From: a virus
Reading direction: 5' to 3' (one strand)
Virus record (IMG/VR): IMGVR_UViG_3300029309_000401
Coordinates: 1-21,413 of that record
Length of the DNA stretch: 21,413 bases
Below are positions 345 through 5,690 of this stretch, one piece after another; the first letter of the stretch is position 1; the number at the start of each line of letters is the position of its first letter. The translations under genes and the position numbers were made by a program. Below the pieces are notes generated by a model. It was given only the letters and a program-made list of their open reading frames with translations, searched no databases and was not told where the DNA came from.

Positions 345-950
345 TTATTCTCCAAATATAACTATATATGCATCTGTTTTTTTAGGTTTATCAATATGTA
401 ATCTTTGATAATTAAAACAAATATCGTGTATACCATTAGAAATTTTATCTAATAATTCCCAAAAAGATTCTCTTCCAGGATCAACCATAATTAGTTGCTT
501 ATCATTATCATCTAAATATTTAATTAAATTAATCCATAAATCTGTATGTATATTCCAAAAACAAACATCTACTGCTATATATGTATCAAAATTTAAAGGC
601 AAAGGTTTAGAAAAAATATCTTGCAAAATAAATTTAGGTTTTACATTCATTAAGCTAGACATTAAATCAAAGTATGGTTTAACATTTTCGTCAGCATCCA
701 TACCTACTGCATATGCACCTTTACTTTGTAAGTAATGTGTTAATGCACCCCAACCACAACCTAAATCTAAAATTTTATTATTAATAATGTCTATTTCATC
801 TAGTGACTCTATAATAACCATAGAAGAATCCCAGATTTTATTTCCGTGTAAGTTATGAACTTTTGTTTTACGTTTAAGTTTTTTTATCTCAGGATGAGAT
901 GATGTGGGTATTTCTACATTTTTAACCCACAAACTATTTGTAGCCACCAC
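345..950 (-). CDS. class I SAM-dependent methyltransferase, METTL/Nnt1-like
   Basis: A 201-residue protein with a clear SAM-binding motif I (KILDLGCGWGALTHYL, about residues 59-74), an acidic end of strand 2 (GMDAD, about 83-87), motif-II-like FILQDIF and a DVCFW segment. The KIWDSSMVIIESL stretch just before motif I and the later DPGRESFWELL resemble the protein-lysine methyltransferase group of METTL/Nnt1 enzymes (Methyltransf_16-like), which suggests a protein substrate; small-molecule or nucleic-acid substrates are not excluded. Start: GTG at 950 with AAGAAGG just upstream, overlapping the previous gene by 17 bases; there is no ATG before residue 44. It sits in the accessory block after the tail fibres and three oxygenases, consistent with a modification role (inference). 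Confidence 0.8.
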   Translation of the reverse strand: MVATNSLWVKNVEIPTSSHPEIKKLKRKTKVHNLHGNKIWDSSMVIIESLDEIDIINNKILDLGCGWGALTHYLQSKGAYAVGMDADENVKPYFDLMSSLMNVKPKFILQDIFSKPLPLNFDTYIAVDVCFWNIHTDLWINLIKYLDDNDKQLIMVDPGRESFWELLDKISNGIHDICFNYQRLHIDKPKKTDAYIVIFGE

Positions 951-1556: not shown

Positions 1557-2063
1557 TCATATATTAATATTTTTTATAACTGTTGCCAATGCTAAAACAA
1601 TTCTATCTTTAGGTGTTATTCCATCTTCAGGATGATGAAACAAGCCTGAATGCCAAAGATACCATTTATTTATTTCGGGTTTTATTTTAAAGTCTGTAAA
1701 ATCTGTACCTAGTTTTGTTGGTGTTATATACATTACAGCAGAAAGCTGCAAACCTTTTTCTTTTTTAAACATATGATTGTGAACAACACTTTGTAATTGC
1801 GAGTTTTTAGATGCGTAGTAACTCCATACATTCTTTTTAATAAATTTAAACTTATCTGTACCTAAGTAAGTTTTAAAAAGATTATTGATAGAATCATCAA
1901 TAACTGGAAAAGCTCTATCTATTTTTAAATCACTTTGTATTTTTGGGTGATTGCAATTTTCTTCTTTACAACACTTAGTTTTTTTAGTGTATTTAATTAA
2001 GTCTTGTTGAAATTTTTTATTGTTTTTTTTGGATATGTAAGGACAGTCAAAGACTTCAACCAT
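1557..2063 (-). CDS. 2-oxoglutarate/Fe(II) oxygenase-like protein (2OG-FeII_Oxy_5-like), third of three
   Basis: A 168-residue protein with a probable double-stranded beta-helix core: HNH (about residues 95-97) followed by a strand LSAVMYITP, then WHSGLFHHPEDG (137-148) and KDRIVLALA (152-160). This resembles the putative 2OG-Fe(II) oxygenase family with H-x-H, a distal His and an Arg that would hold 2-oxoglutarate (here H97, H143 and R154, all tentative). Compared with its two upstream neighbours it lacks the H-x-D motif, so catalysis is less certain. A CCKEENCNHP stretch (31-40) could bind a metal. ATG 2063 was chosen over a TTG at 2090; it overlaps the previous stop by 8 bases and has no strong Shine-Dalgarno. 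Substrate unknown. Confidence 0.65.
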   Translation of the reverse strand: MVEVFDCPYISKKNNKKFQQDLIKYTKKTKCCKEENCNHPKIQSDLKIDRAFPVIDDSINNLFKTYLGTDKFKFIKKNVWSYYASKNSQLQSVVHNHMFKKEKGLQLSAVMYITPTKLGTDFTDFKIKPEINKWYLWHSGLFHHPEDGITPKDRIVLALATVIKNINI

Positions 2064-2679
2064 TTGTTTTGTACCAACTAGGCAATCCAATCATAGGTCT
2101 ACTGTCAAATTTATTAATTTTTGCATCTTTGCCACTAGCATCGTTGTAGTGTAAAAACACTTGTCCACAATCTTTACCTGTAAATGGATCACGCCAATGT
2201 TCAAGATCGCAACCTCTATACATTAACATATCTCCTGCTTCTAATTTTATTTCAATACCTTTTTTATTTTTTTTGCCTGATGGTTCTAAAAAAATTGACC
2301 ATTCATCTCCGCCTAAGTGCATAGTAGTAGATATTTCACAAGAGTATCTATCTGTATGTCTTTTTAACTCATCACCTTTTTTATAGATTCTTGCATATGA
2401 ATAAGTTTCAGTCAGTTTAATTTCTGATTTTTCTTCCATAACAGGTTTAACTTTTTGTAATAAAGTTTCCATTACTATATCTGCGTAATGTGAATAAGTT
2501 TCAGGTATCTGTACATCATTCCATACTCCAAAATATGTTGTATATGGAGATAAAAATCTATCATCAAATAAATGTCTTGCAACTGCTCTTTTATTTAAAA
2601 AGTATTGATAACAAAAATCTGCTAACTCTTTTGATATAGCACCTTTGATTACTTGGTATTTATTTTTTTTAAAGCTCAT
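2056..2679 (-). CDS. 2-oxoglutarate/Fe(II)-dependent oxygenase, prolyl 4-hydroxylase-like, second of three
   Basis: A 207-residue protein with the Fe(II) facial triad: RHTDRY gives H108 and D110, and CDLEHW gives H161. Strands flank these as in P4H-like folds (ETYSYARIYKKGDELKRH; LEAGDMLMY). The position that usually carries the Arg/Lys binding the 2-oxoglutarate carboxylate appears to be Gln or another residue (CGQVFLHY, about 171-178), so co-substrate binding may differ. Known relatives hydroxylate prolines in proteins or small molecules; the substrate here is unknown. The start forms an ATGA overlap with the upstream oxygenase gene, so both are likely made together. Confidence 0.85.
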   Translation of the reverse strand: MSFKKNKYQVIKGAISKELADFCYQYFLNKRAVARHLFDDRFLSPYTTYFGVWNDVQIPETYSHYADIVMETLLQKVKPVMEEKSEIKLTETYSYARIYKKGDELKRHTDRYSCEISTTMHLGGDEWSIFLEPSGKKNKKGIEIKLEAGDMLMYRGCDLEHWRDPFTGKDCGQVFLHYNDASGKDAKINKFDSRPMIGLPSWYKTNG

Positions 2680-3302
2680 CTAAATGGGTATCCTAAATTC
2701 CAACACACTAAAGAGTGTCGTATTCCTTTAGTTACTGGTTTAACTCTATGCCAAACAAAAGAAGGAAAAACAATTACGCTACCTTTTTTTCTAATTTCTT
2801 CACATATTCTTGGTTGTGATCCTTCATCTGTATTTCTAAAATCAAACTCTAAATCACCGCCTTCATATTTATCAGGATCAGTTAAAGATATAGTCATACT
2901 AAGTTTTCTTAACTTTCCATTTGTGTTTGGTGAATTTTCATGTTTATATGGTTCTACATATGAATCGCAATGCCAATCATAATACTGACCTTTTTTATAT
3001 TCAGTAAATTGACATTCTTCCGACCAATCCCAATCAAAATTCCAACCTGCATTGTAATTAGCTTGGTGTATATATGGGTGAATTTCATTATAAATCCATC
3101 TATCCGACATCCAAACAACATCAGATTTTCGTTTCTTTTGAATATTTTTAAGTTCTAATTTAGATAGTTTTTCTTTTGGAGTGCCCTCATGTCCAGTAAG
3201 AGCCATTTGTTTGTCTTGTTCTTTGCCATAACGAACAATCTCATCACATATTCTTTCAGGTATTGCTGATTGAAAGTACCAGTAGTACCATTTTAAATTC
3301 AT
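2676..3302 (-). CDS. 2-oxoglutarate/Fe(II)-dependent dioxygenase, PKHD/P4Hc type, first of three
   Basis: The best preserved of the three oxygenases (208 residues). The ligand set is complete: WHCDSY supplies H111 and D113, VIVFPSFVWHRVKPV supplies H185, and KGIRHSLVCW supplies R195 ten residues later for 2-oxoglutarate. The YEGGDLEF strand and the GSVIVFPS strand are typical of PKHD-type hydroxylases (PiuC/P4Hc family). Such enzymes couple decarboxylation of 2-oxoglutarate to hydroxylation; the target cannot be read from sequence. It lies directly after two glycine-rich adhesin-like genes and overlaps the next oxygenase by ATGA. Confidence 0.92.
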   Translation of the reverse strand: MNLKWYYWYFQSAIPERICDEIVRYGKEQDKQMALTGHEGTPKEKLSKLELKNIQKKRKSDVVWMSDRWIYNEIHPYIHQANYNAGWNFDWDWSEECQFTEYKKGQYYDWHCDSYVEPYKHENSPNTNGKLRKLSMTISLTDPDKYEGGDLEFDFRNTDEGSQPRICEEIRKKGSVIVFPSFVWHRVKPVTKGIRHSLVCWNLGYPFR

Positions 3303-3320
3303 AGGTAAATTATACTTTAT

Positions 3321-4259
3321 TTATACCCAATTATCTGATTTAACTTGTGTATAAACTTTTCTTAAATCCCAAATGCTTGATGCTGTTTTAAAAGCTGGTT
3401 CTTTAATAATGACGACTCCAGAACCACCTGCTCCAGAAGCTCCAGTTCCTGCTTGGTTAGTTCCGCCACCACCGCCACTACCTTTATTGGTTGCTCCAGC
3501 AGTTCCATTTGTTCCTGCTGGTGTATATAAACCACCATTTCCGCCACCACCAGGACCGCCTTGTGGTTGTGGTATGCCTTGAGCAGCACCACCACCGCCA
3601 CCTGCATAAGTTACATTTGATCCTGAATAAGTAGAGGGTGCACCATTACCGCCTGTTCCAACTCCTGATACTCCAGGATTTGTAGGTCCACCAGTGCCAC
3701 CAATGACTCCTGCACCTCCTGCTCCGCCTCCGCCACCAGAAACATTTGATCCAGTTGACATTCTATTACCACCAGGATTTCCTTGTGATGGTGAGGTGGG
3801 AGGTGTATTACCATTACTCACTGTAGATGAGTCATTGTATTCAGGTGCTACTTGATTGTGTAATGCAACTCCACCACCTGAACCACCAGTTCCACCTGTT
3901 GTTCCACCTGGATTACCTCCGCCTCCACCTCCACCTGTGGAAGTTACGCTACCAACTACAGAGTTACCACCATTTGAACCAACAGCACCAGTATTGGCTG
4001 CACCTGAGCCACCTGCTCCTACTGTTACTGGTGTTGGTGAACCTGGGGATGGTATATCTTCAACTTCTCTAAAACCACCTGCACCGCCTCCGCCTCCGAC
4101 ACCTACAGAAACAGACTCAACGCCACCGCCTCCGCCTCCAGCTATTACTAGAGCATCAAAAGTAGCTGTAGCAGGGTTAAATGTTCCGCTTGAATTAAAT
4201 GTTGTTGTTAATGCAGCAGTAGTTGTAACTGTTTGTGCTGATCCGATTAATTTTGGCAT
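3321..4259 (-). CDS. glycine-rich tail fibre/adhesin-like protein, paralogue 2
   Basis: A 312-residue protein. Residues 1-38 (with TTFNSSGTFNP and DALVIAGGGGGG) form a short head; a long glycine-rich body with GGGGGG, GNPGG and GGPGGGG blocks extends to about residue 275; the end is GGSGVVIIKEP followed by SIWDLRKVYTQVKSDNWV. This plan (glycine-rich body forming packed polyglycine-type helices) is seen in phage tip adhesins such as T-even gp38-like proteins and in many marine tail fibres. The C-terminal W-x-L/M-x(2)-x-Y-x(2)-VK-x-x-NW motif is shared with the neighbouring gene. It starts one base after the stop of its paralogue. Role as receptor binding is inferred. Confidence 0.8.
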   Translation of the reverse strand: MPKLIGSAQTVTTTAALTTTFNSSGTFNPATATFDALVIAGGGGGGVESVSVGVGGGGGAGGFREVEDIPSPGSPTPVTVGAGGSGAANTGAVGSNGGNSVVGSVTSTGGGGGGGNPGGTTGGTGGSGGGVALHNQVAPEYNDSSTVSNGNTPPTSPSQGNPGGNRMSTGSNVSGGGGGAGGAGVIGGTGGPTNPGVSGVGTGGNGAPSTYSGSNVTYAGGGGGAAQGIPQPQGGPGGGGNGGLYTPAGTNGTAGATNKGSGGGGGTNQAGTGASGAGGSGVVIIKEPAFKTASSIWDLRKVYTQVKSDNWV

Positions 4260-4260
4260 A

Positions 4261-5250
4261 TCAACTTACCCAATTTCCACTTTTAACAGCATCGTATAGG
4301 GCTTCCATATTCCAAACACCGCCTGTATTTGAAGTAAAAGTAACTTCTGGTTCTTTTATTATAACTACACCTGAGCCACCTGCTCCTCCATCTCTTGGAT
4401 TATAAGGTGTTCCTCCGCCACCACCTGCTCCACCGCCACCACCAGTATTGGCTGTACCAGCATTTCCTATTCCTTGAGAGTTTGTTGCTCCTGCTCCTCC
4501 ACCCCCAGTTCCGCCCGAACCTGCTGTGCCTGAAAATCTTCCTGTTCCACCGCCACCACCTGCTCTTGTTACAGGTGAGCCAGTAATAGAGGATGCTACG
4601 CCATTTCCACCAGGATAACCTCTTTGTGGGGGTACAGGTGGTCCAGGATTGCTTGTGCCTGCTGCTGCTGCACCTCCGCCTCCGCCACCACCATTGTTAC
4701 TACCACCAATATAGTAAGCAGTACCTCCAGGATAGCCTTGACCAGATGTTCCTGTTCCAGAGCCACTACTTGAATAAGATACTCCTCCTCCTGATCCTCC
4801 GTTCATGGAGCCAGATGTCGGTTCTTCTGGAGGAAAAGCTCCACCACCTCCGCCAATTGATGTAATAGAGTTAAAACTAGAATCAGAACCTTTAACTCCT
4901 CCTGTTTTTCCGCTACTTGGACTTGGTGTATCTCCACCTGCTCCGCCACCACCTACTACAACTGGATAACCAGTAGCTCCTGAAACTGGACTTAAACTTT
5001 CTGCTGAAGCTCCTCCGCCTGAAGATTCGCCAGGAACTGATGAACGATAGCCACCTGCTCCGCCACCACCTGATCCATTTAAATCTCCGCTTCCACCGCC
5101 TCCGCCAGCAACTATTACATACTGTACTTCTGTGGTTCTAGCTGCTGTGGTTAAAGTACCGCTTGAGTTAAATGTAGTTATAACAGCAGATTGAGTTCCT
5201 GCTTCAGGTTCGTAGTCTATGCCAATATATCCGCCATTCGTACTAGCCAT
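4261..5250 (-). CDS. glycine-rich tail fibre/adhesin-like protein, paralogue 1
   Basis: A 329-residue protein of the same architecture as the next gene: ITTFNSSGTL and VQYVIVAGGGGGSG at the start, many GGGGGG and GYPGG blocks in the body, and GGSGVVIIKEP followed by GGVWNMEALYDAVKSGNWVS at the end. The shared first and last segments with a divergent middle indicate duplication followed by divergence, as expected for host-recognition proteins. GAGG sits upstream of the ATG as a ribosome site. The body carries many Gly-Pro/Pro-Gly steps (GYPGG occurs twice), relevant to the hydroxylase-like enzymes encoded downstream. Placed at the end of the tail-fibre block. Confidence 0.8.
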   Translation of the reverse strand: MASTNGGYIGIDYEPEAGTQSAVITTFNSSGTLTTAARTTEVQYVIVAGGGGGSGDLNGSGGGGAGGYRSSVPGESSGGGASAESLSPVSGATGYPVVVGGGGAGGDTPSPSSGKTGGVKGSDSSFNSITSIGGGGGAFPPEEPTSGSMNGGSGGGVSYSSSGSGTGTSGQGYPGGTAYYIGGSNNGGGGGGGAAAAGTSNPGPPVPPQRGYPGGNGVASSITGSPVTRAGGGGGTGRFSGTAGSGGTGGGGAGATNSQGIGNAGTANTGGGGGAGGGGGTPYNPRDGGAGGSGVVIIKEPEVTFTSNTGGVWNMEALYDAVKSGNWVS

Positions 5251-5252
5251 AG

Positions 5253-5690
5253 TTAGACCTCATTCCATTCCTTATTAGTAGCATCCCAATCATAATTTTT
5301 TGAATCTACTTTACCTGTCCATTTTTGATTATCTTCATCCCAAAATATTAGAACAAAATCAGAATCTATTTCTATAACATTTGGATAAGTTACAGGTGGT
5401 TGCCAGTCATCATTAGAATCCAAAGACCAAGATGTATATGGTTGTGGCAAAATAAATTTATCTTTACTTGCATCATAGTTCATGCCTATGCCTGCGTATT
5501 GTTTTCTAAAATTATGATTATAAGAGGTTTGTTTCCAAGCTGTACCGCCTGTTGAGTGTGGAACGATAGTTGCTACAAATGTTTCTGCATCTGCGTGTTG
5601 ATCGCCACCATTGGCATTTACATCATCATTAGATATTACTACTACTCGTAATACTTCGTTGCTTGAATTAAGTTCTGCAAAGTGAGCCAT
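5253..5690 (-). CDS. conserved phage tail-region protein with repeated W-rich C terminus (145 aa)
   Basis: Begins MAHFAELNSSNEVLRVVVIS, has a central SYNHNFRKQYAGIGMNYD and then KFILPQPYTSWSLDSNDDWQ and FWDEDNQKWTGKV. Proteins with this set of segments are common in tail-fibre regions of marine and cyanobacterial phages (family recognition from memory), but no enzymatic motif is visible. Its start has a perfect AAGGAGG about 10 bases upstream. Position between two fibre-type genes suggests a virion or fibre-associated protein (inference). Confidence 0.75.
   Translation of the reverse strand: MAHFAELNSSNEVLRVVVISNDDVNANGGDQHADAETFVATIVPHSTGGTAWKQTSYNHNFRKQYAGIGMNYDASKDKFILPQPYTSWSLDSNDDWQPPVTYPNVIEIDSDFVLIFWDEDNQKWTGKVDSKNYDWDATNKEWNEV

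Follow-up and report, generated by a model that had tools for sequence, protein, structure and literature searches.

The stretch of DNA analyzed here, hereafter the window, is the IMG/VR virus record IMGVR_UViG_3300029309_000401 over all of its 21,413 bases, and comes from a marine virus of bacteria. Its genes, nearly all of which lie on the minus strand, include those for terminase, portal, capsid and tail proteins, and at the window end they follow one another, all on the minus strand, in the transcription order MAHFA, Gly-rich 1, Gly-rich 2, Ox1, Ox2 and Ox3. The Gly-rich genes encode two adhesin-like proteins and the Ox genes three predicted 2-oxoglutarate (2OG)/Fe(II) oxygenases, with Ox1 and Ox2 overlapping by ATGA and Ox2 and Ox3 by 8 bases. 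An earlier account of this locus, referred to below as the sequence-only reading, had correctly delineated the open reading frames (ORFs), coordinates and overlaps of the five-gene block from Gly-rich 1 to Ox3, and had proposed that the oxygenases act on the fibre proteins encoded beside them. In the following, we argue that this block is probably a virion-modification cassette, whose Ox enzymes hydroxylate prolines in the adjacent receptor-binding or fibre-tip proteins of the Gly_rich_2 family (PF21722).

The glycine-rich proteins

The proposed substrates, Gly-rich 1 (4261..5250, minus strand, 329 residues) and Gly-rich 2 (3321..4259, minus strand, 312 residues), match PF21722 with E-values of 3e-14 and 1.6e-11 and with 54.0 and 45.1 bits, which exceeds the gathering cut-off of 24.3 bits. 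Both also match phrog_2295, and neither has a sequence match to any PDB chain. In sequence style, they resemble the polyglycine-sandwich adhesin gp38 of Salmonella phage S16, which is described as a fibre-tip protein with Gly-rich helices that alternate with hypervariable segments, the loops being proposed to bind the receptor (PMC6851490). By analogy with gp38, the prolines of the window proteins would lie in exposed loops.

The sequence-only reading had emphasized Gly-Pro and Pro-Gly steps and likened the presumed modification to that of collagen, and this part of it did not hold. Such steps number 5 and 7 in the two proteins versus 12.6 and 12.1 expected from composition, the longest GXX runs are 4 and 6, and the prolines of the Gly-rich domains come after S, T, N, Y or F, prolines flanked by G being depleted. 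A collagen-like substrate, with GXY repeats and enrichment of X-Pro-Gly, is thereby rejected. One proline-containing segment, GNTPPxSPxQG (motif NTPPxSPxQG), is recurrent, and domains without oxygenases have GTxxQG in its place; in Gly-rich 2, the codons of its representative NTPPTSPSQG lie at 3780..3809 on the minus strand. The pattern [ST]PPx[STN]P was found in 15 of 22 loci with oxygenases and in 0 of 25 loci without them.

The oxygenases and the 'ferrochelatase' label

Ox1 (2676..3302, minus strand, 208 residues) is an oxygenase of the PKHD/prolyl 4-hydroxylase (P4H) type. It matches PF13640 in Pfam (E = 3.4e-15) as well as phrog_61, and its residues H111-x-D113...H185 and R195 are invariant in an alignment of 7 phages, so that family match, HxD...H motif and 2OG-binding arginine together place it in the 2OG-Fe(II) oxygenase superfamily. 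Among proteins in the PDB, it is closest by sequence to PiuC/PKHD (4e-5), and by profile to PKHD (1e-8) and, more distantly, to the viral P4H 5c5t (E = 0.007); it scores far below the equivalog cut-offs for YbiX/PiuC.

Ox2 (2056..2679, minus strand, 207 residues) belongs to phrog_2954 (1.4e-52), a family that goes by the name 'ferrochelatase' both in PHROGs and in pelagiphage entries of GenBank. It matches no Pfam family at E <= 1, hence no ferrochelatase family, and its HxD...H residues (H108, D110, H161) are invariant over 31 relatives. As profile-profile comparisons from thin alignments gave no link of either Ox2 or Ox3 to Ox1, we turned to structure prediction. The AlphaFold2 model of Ox2 (pLDDT 91.8) shows a 2OG-oxygenase fold; its best Foldseek match is the Pseudomonas putida prolyl-4-hydroxylase in complex with EF-Tu (4iw3, 7e-9), and its VIA Z-scores to PHD2/PHDs and related 2OG enzymes are 15–16. 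With a predicted double-stranded beta-helix fold and the HxD...H motif, Ox2 thus qualifies as a 2OG-Fe(II) oxygenase. Its identity as a ferrochelatase was rejected, the model having an oxygenase and not a chelatase fold; together with the invariant metal site and the missing Pfam match, this makes the label wrong for Ox2 and very probably for the whole phrog_2954 family. Since phrog_3531 matches Ox2 over one of its halves and Ox1 over the other, its two-part layout suggests that the two enzymes work together.

Ox3 (1557..2063, minus strand, 168 residues; the best start is the ATG at 2063 and the stop lies at 1557) is diverged. It has no usable family match, a single sub-threshold Pfam match being apparently due to chance, and a tblastn search against phages returned no matches. 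Its AlphaFold2 model (pLDDT 91.8) again shows the 2OG-oxygenase fold and is closest to the PF13759-type structures 2rg4/3bvc (Z = 15.5), with prolyl hydroxylases also among its matches; the profile tie to PF13759-type proteins is weak (E = 7.6e-4, probability 25%). In an alignment of 20 sequences, its motif reads HNH...H, R (H95-N-H97...H143, R154), unlike the usual HxD/E, which makes its activity less certain; its targets may be sites or residues different from those of Ox1 and Ox2. The sequence-only reading had called all three genes oxygenase-like and had assigned HxD...H sites to two of them. The second statement is right, and the first agrees with the folds of the Ox2 and Ox3 models, although the reading was unaware of the 'ferrochelatase' filing and the third motif departs from the canonical one.

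Outside viruses, the Ox2 pattern was found on ten contigs in a scan of 84,980 bacterial and archaeal genomes. Eight of the ten carry a phage-type array with Ox1, and six of these eight also carry Gly-rich proteins with 5–11% proline; another, L415, holds a truncated Ox2 only. A Rickettsiales contig (L409) from a metagenome-assembled genome encodes an Ox2 homolog with 62% identity (L409:5989-6702, plus strand), whose neighbours look cellular by eye (RecQ-, ClpX-, PurB- and pirin-like); this could be a case of phage-to-host transfer.

Linkage of oxygenases and glycine-rich genes

Among IMG/VR relatives with at least 3 kb upstream, a Gly-rich ORF lies within 4 kb of the oxygenase in 47 of 47 Ox2 loci and in 36 of 36 Ox1 loci, which bears out the co-occurrence that the sequence-only reading had named as a check. 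In 12 phage genomes of 53–205 kb, which are complete or come from isolates, the gap between oxygenase and Gly-rich gene is 0–6.3 kb, and it stays small even where a single PF21722 gene is present in 141–194 kb. Relatives of both Ox1 and Ox2 adjoin Gly-rich genes in HTVC033P, HTVC023P, HTVC008M, Mosig, S-SM1 and S-RSM4. Gene order and strand vary while proximity is kept, with the array of HTVC008M lying on the opposite strand. The arrangement recurs in podo- and myoviruses of both SAR11 and cyanobacteria, and is not due to chance.

The MAHFA protein (5253..5690, minus strand, 145 residues, phrog_7759) takes part in this linkage: it is found in five of the six phages just named, and all 37 MAHFA loci in IMG/VR relatives with enough flanking sequence have both Gly-rich and oxygenase genes. 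It constantly accompanies the Gly-rich genes and is possibly a fibre accessory protein or chaperone. In a survey of 24 isolates or records picked by Ox1 or MAHFA, all 24 carry PF21722, whereas about half were without Ox2 and nine without any PF13640 or PF13759 oxygenase that we could see. Taken together with the linkage counts, this means that the adhesin occurs without the enzymes, but the enzymes seldom without the adhesin.

Proline content of the glycine-rich domains

If the enzymes hydroxylate proline in Gly-rich proteins, proline is to be expected where the enzymes are. This is what we observe. In isolates, proline makes up 0.069 of the PF21722 domain in the presence of Ox1/Ox2 (n = 13) versus 0.017 in their absence (n = 8; p = 1e-5), at an equal glycine content (0.38); S-RIM44 was set aside in this comparison, and Greip was dropped since its domain crosses the record start. 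We also obtained a sample blind to the oxygenases by scanning IMG/VR with a DNA pattern for the C-terminal GGSGxVII motif of the domain, in which the proline fraction is 0.060–0.129 with Ox1/Ox2 and mostly 0.004–0.030 without. In a comparison of all 20 residues, whose oxygenase-free set had been chosen partly for long contigs, proline was the most different (6e-9, 4.3-fold), followed by leucine (2e-4). Because of this choice, we repeated the test under a fixed rule with whole-record checks, by which a locus counted as oxygenase-free if no oxygenase was found and the Gly-rich gene had at least 3 kb of flanking sequence in either direction. The result was 0.084 proline (n = 24 records, minimum 0.060) versus 0.022 (n = 18; p = 5e-8), and a threshold of 5% proline was exceeded in 24 of 24 records with oxygenases and in 1 of 18 without.

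Other ORFs have the same proline content in both classes (0.041 versus 0.042; 0.038 versus 0.038), which rules out a global proline or GC bias. Likewise, the two classes of domain are not separate families, as identity is 0.454 among oxygenase-associated domains and 0.451 between the classes. In greedily matched domain pairs, for which S-RIM44 was counted as oxygenase-bearing, the oxygenase-associated member is richer in proline in 33 of 34 pairs, and in 30 of 30 at >=45% identity. The nearest oxygenase-free relative of Gly-rich 1 (L287, 58% identity), from a 30.6 kb record in which no oxygenase was found, illustrates this: the prolines of Gly-rich 1 align to its residues N, V, T, S, A, S, D, T, D, S, S and T. 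Even pelagiphages that infect one and the same strain, HTCC1062, are divided in this respect, with 0.016 in HTVC025P versus 0.038–0.094 in HTVC033P, HTVC023P, HTVC008M and Mosig.

Some apparent exceptions lie at contig ends. Among the high-proline loci that appeared oxygenase-free, L293 (9.3% proline) turned out to carry Ox1 at the end of its contig, and in five others the sequence stops less than 0.7 kb from the Gly-rich gene. Phages or loci with PF13759 enzymes only have intermediate or low proline (W07 0.034, W20 0.009, L312 0.037, L346 0.056), and these enzymes alone therefore do not carry the signal. Of the other residues, cysteine and lysine are also enriched in the presence of oxygenases, each at less than 1% abundance; with 0.6–0.8% in oxygenase-bearing domains, lysine is barely enriched, and lysine hydroxylation is a weak candidate.

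Other genes near the arrays

In four cyanophages, S-CAM8, S-SSM5, P-RSM4 (L234) and S-MS29 (L238), the Gly-rich gene is separated from Ox1 by a gene for a carbamoyltransferase, with coordinates of L232:2157-3821 and L230:2178-3788, both on the minus strand, and with PF16861/PF02543 matches in the two that were tested. Carbamoyltransferases of this type act on hydroxyl groups, so the enzyme may decorate hydroxylated residues. A flavin-dependent tryptophan halogenase (PF04820) is found near the Gly-rich genes and the array in S-RIM44 (L244:1-1978, plus strand) and HTVC008M (L004:4525-5919, minus strand). Given both neighbours, a wider decoration toolkit is possible.

Two array genes are annotated as 'DNA endonuclease V'. 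As one has a weak PF13640 signal (L240:6980-7459, E = 0.029) and the other no Pfam match (L006:11511-12020), this label may be another misannotation. In the window itself, the oxygenase genes are followed by two for small Lys/Arg-rich proteins of histone- or protamine-like composition (934-1272, which matches phrog_17747, and 104-343, both on the minus strand). Near the array there is also a gene resembling S-adenosylmethionine-dependent methyltransferases (345-950, minus strand), whose PF13649 match of 28.2 bits is barely above the cut-off.

Interpretation and alternatives

The order and families of the genes, the folds of the models, the conservation of metal sites and of linkage, and the specific association of proline with the presence of oxygenases are observed, whereas the activity of the enzymes, proline as the residue that is hydroxylated, and the timing and effect of hydroxylation are inferred. 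In the model that we favour, the two Gly-rich adhesins would be made together with the structural proteins and the oxygenases, and the adjacent Fe(II)/2OG enzymes would hydroxylate adhesin prolines before or during assembly. The targets would chiefly be prolines after Ser, Thr, Asn or Tyr in the variable stretches that separate the glycine runs, as in NTPPTSPSQG. Ox1 (PKHD/P4H-type) and Ox2 (PHD-type fold) are the likely prolyl hydroxylases. Hydroxylation would probably tune the conformation or stability of the loops or their contact with the receptor, or it might offer a hydroxyl group for further decoration. The central proposal of the sequence-only reading, that the oxygenases act on the adjacent fibres, thus gains strong, if indirect, support from the conserved linkage, the four-fold proline enrichment and the prolyl-hydroxylase-like folds, but loses its collagen-like component.

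Several observations weigh against this interpretation. The sequence-only reading had named oxygenases in relatives without Gly-rich fibres as the refuting case, and we met this in a few distant phages only: S-P4 and AG-345-E08 have Ox2 homologs and no PF21722 match, the S-P4 gene lying beside DNA methyltransferase and clamp loader genes. S-PM2 likewise has an Ox2 homolog and no PF21722 match, but two Gly-rich, proline-containing fibre-like ORFs lie a few kb from its array. S-RIM44 possesses the array, yet its Gly-rich domains are poor in proline (1.9%). Conversely, L324 (32,891 bases) has Gly-rich domains with 6.4% proline as well as a MAHFA gene, yet the record encodes neither a PF13640 nor a PF13759 enzyme; of the records without oxygenases, it alone firmly breaks the proline rule. 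Furthermore, phage ancestry is controlled only through the matched pairs, which we used because a proline-masked domain tree was too poorly resolved (11 changes on the best tree, 1 of them forced), so that independent gains are not countable. Proline could also be enriched for structural reasons, and a shared fold does not fix the substrate. Lastly, the prolyl 4-hydroxylase of PBCV-1 is active on peptides, but the virions yielded no hydroxyproline (PMC7019647).

Other explanations account for parts of these data. The fibre might be modified at residues other than proline (Asn, Asp, Lys, His), or the targets might be MAHFA or other tail proteins, with the extra prolines serving a structural role such as stiffening loops in a polyglycine/polyproline-II lattice. 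The linkage supports this equally strongly, the three enzymes differ in their active sites (HxD versus HNH), and K, C and N are slightly raised in oxygenase-associated domains; we nevertheless consider it unlikely, as the large, near-complete separation is seen in proline only (4.3-fold) and matched domains gain proline exactly with the oxygenases. A residue-specific difference in proline between matched domains is not predicted if the array merely hitch-hikes, i.e. shares an exchangeable host-recognition region with the Gly-rich genes and has no functional tie to their products. This we regard as very unlikely, even though the region is modular and many phages with Gly-rich and MAHFA genes are without the enzymes.

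The remaining two explanations place the substrate outside the virion proteins. In the published view, the oxygenases and the 'ferrochelatase' are auxiliary metabolic genes (AMGs) that would change how the host metabolizes nitrogen, iron or haem (PMC4164917, PMC9599517, PMC11561400). We find this quite improbable, because Ox2 is no ferrochelatase by Pfam or predicted fold, and because it gives no reason for the Gly-rich neighbours in 47 of 47 loci or for the correlation with their proline. That the enzymes act on nucleic acids, repairing or modifying the phage DNA in the manner of AlkB/TET, would fit the genomic context in S-P4 and the best oxygenase match of the Ox2 profile by sequence, which is Tet-like and non-significant (E = 0.2). 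It is highly improbable in view of the fold matches, whose top rows hold prolyl hydroxylases and small-molecule oxygenases and not AlkB (which is no proof of its absence), and of the neighbours, which in nearly all genomes seen are fibre and not replication genes.

Pelagiphages and cyanophages frequently carry phrog_61 oxygenases and phrog_2954 'ferrochelatases'. If these enzymes hydroxylate prolines of the adhesins, many marine genes now classed as 'AMGs' would have to be re-filed, 'ferrochelatase' would need a new name, and chemistry on finished proteins would join the means by which phages tune host recognition. It may well be that a widespread marine-phage system puts hydroxyproline on its own receptor-binding adhesins through dedicated oxygenase arrays, in some cases followed by a further reaction at the added hydroxyl (carbamoyl) or by halogenation, and that genes commonly listed as ocean 'AMGs' in fact encode enzymes for fibre modification. 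Cultured phages with such arrays exist (HTVC033P, HTVC023P, HTVC008M, Mosig, S-SM1).

Comparison with known systems

The Ox1 and Ox2 families are those known from marine phages as the phrog_61 '2OG-Fe(II) oxygenase' and phrog_2954 'ferrochelatase' AMGs. Phage 2OG-Fe(II) oxygenases have been read as part of nitrogen-related host metabolism (PMC4164917), ferrochelatase and oxygenase have been treated as AMG partners, with their mutual co-location reported (PMC9599517), and both families are described as seasonal AMGs, seasonally enriched in an English Channel virome (PMC11561400). The available text of these papers offers the metabolic reading, with no link to Gly-rich fibres, no proline signature and no true fold for the 'ferrochelatase'. 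A Baltic study noted viral prolyl 4-hydroxylase genes, mentioned collagen in tail fibres and called their use cryptic (PMC9301287). A full-text literature search joining 2OG-Fe, phage, hydroxylation and glycine-rich gave no match, and within the literature searched the linkage appears to be new, as do the proline signature and the reassignment of the 'ferrochelatase'.

On the substrate side, the likeness to S16 gp38 is one of sequence style, and the available text on S16 reports no oxygenases (PMC6851490). On the enzyme side, the nearest PDB sequence relatives of Ox1, the PKHD-type proteins PiuC/YbiX (3dkq, 9ghl), differ in being cellular and in their iron-uptake setting. The PBCV-1 enzyme vCPH (5c5t/5c5u) is a virus-encoded prolyl hydroxylase with a weak profile match to Ox1 (E = 0.007) and a Z-score of 12 to the Ox3 model, but it belongs to an algal giant virus whose virions are without detected hydroxyproline. 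To our knowledge, it has no linkage to Gly-rich adhesins. The closest parallels to Ox2 are P. putida PPHD, which acts on EF-Tu (4iw3, 4j25), and the HIF hydroxylase PHD2, both of which are also among the best matches of its model by VIA Z-score (15.4). Ox2 has just 11–16% identity to them, is phage-borne and stands in arrays beside fibre genes, and its prolyl substrate is a prediction; nonetheless, it shares with them the 2OG/Fe(II) fold and the HxD...H motif, and both enzymes hydroxylate proline in proteins other than collagen.

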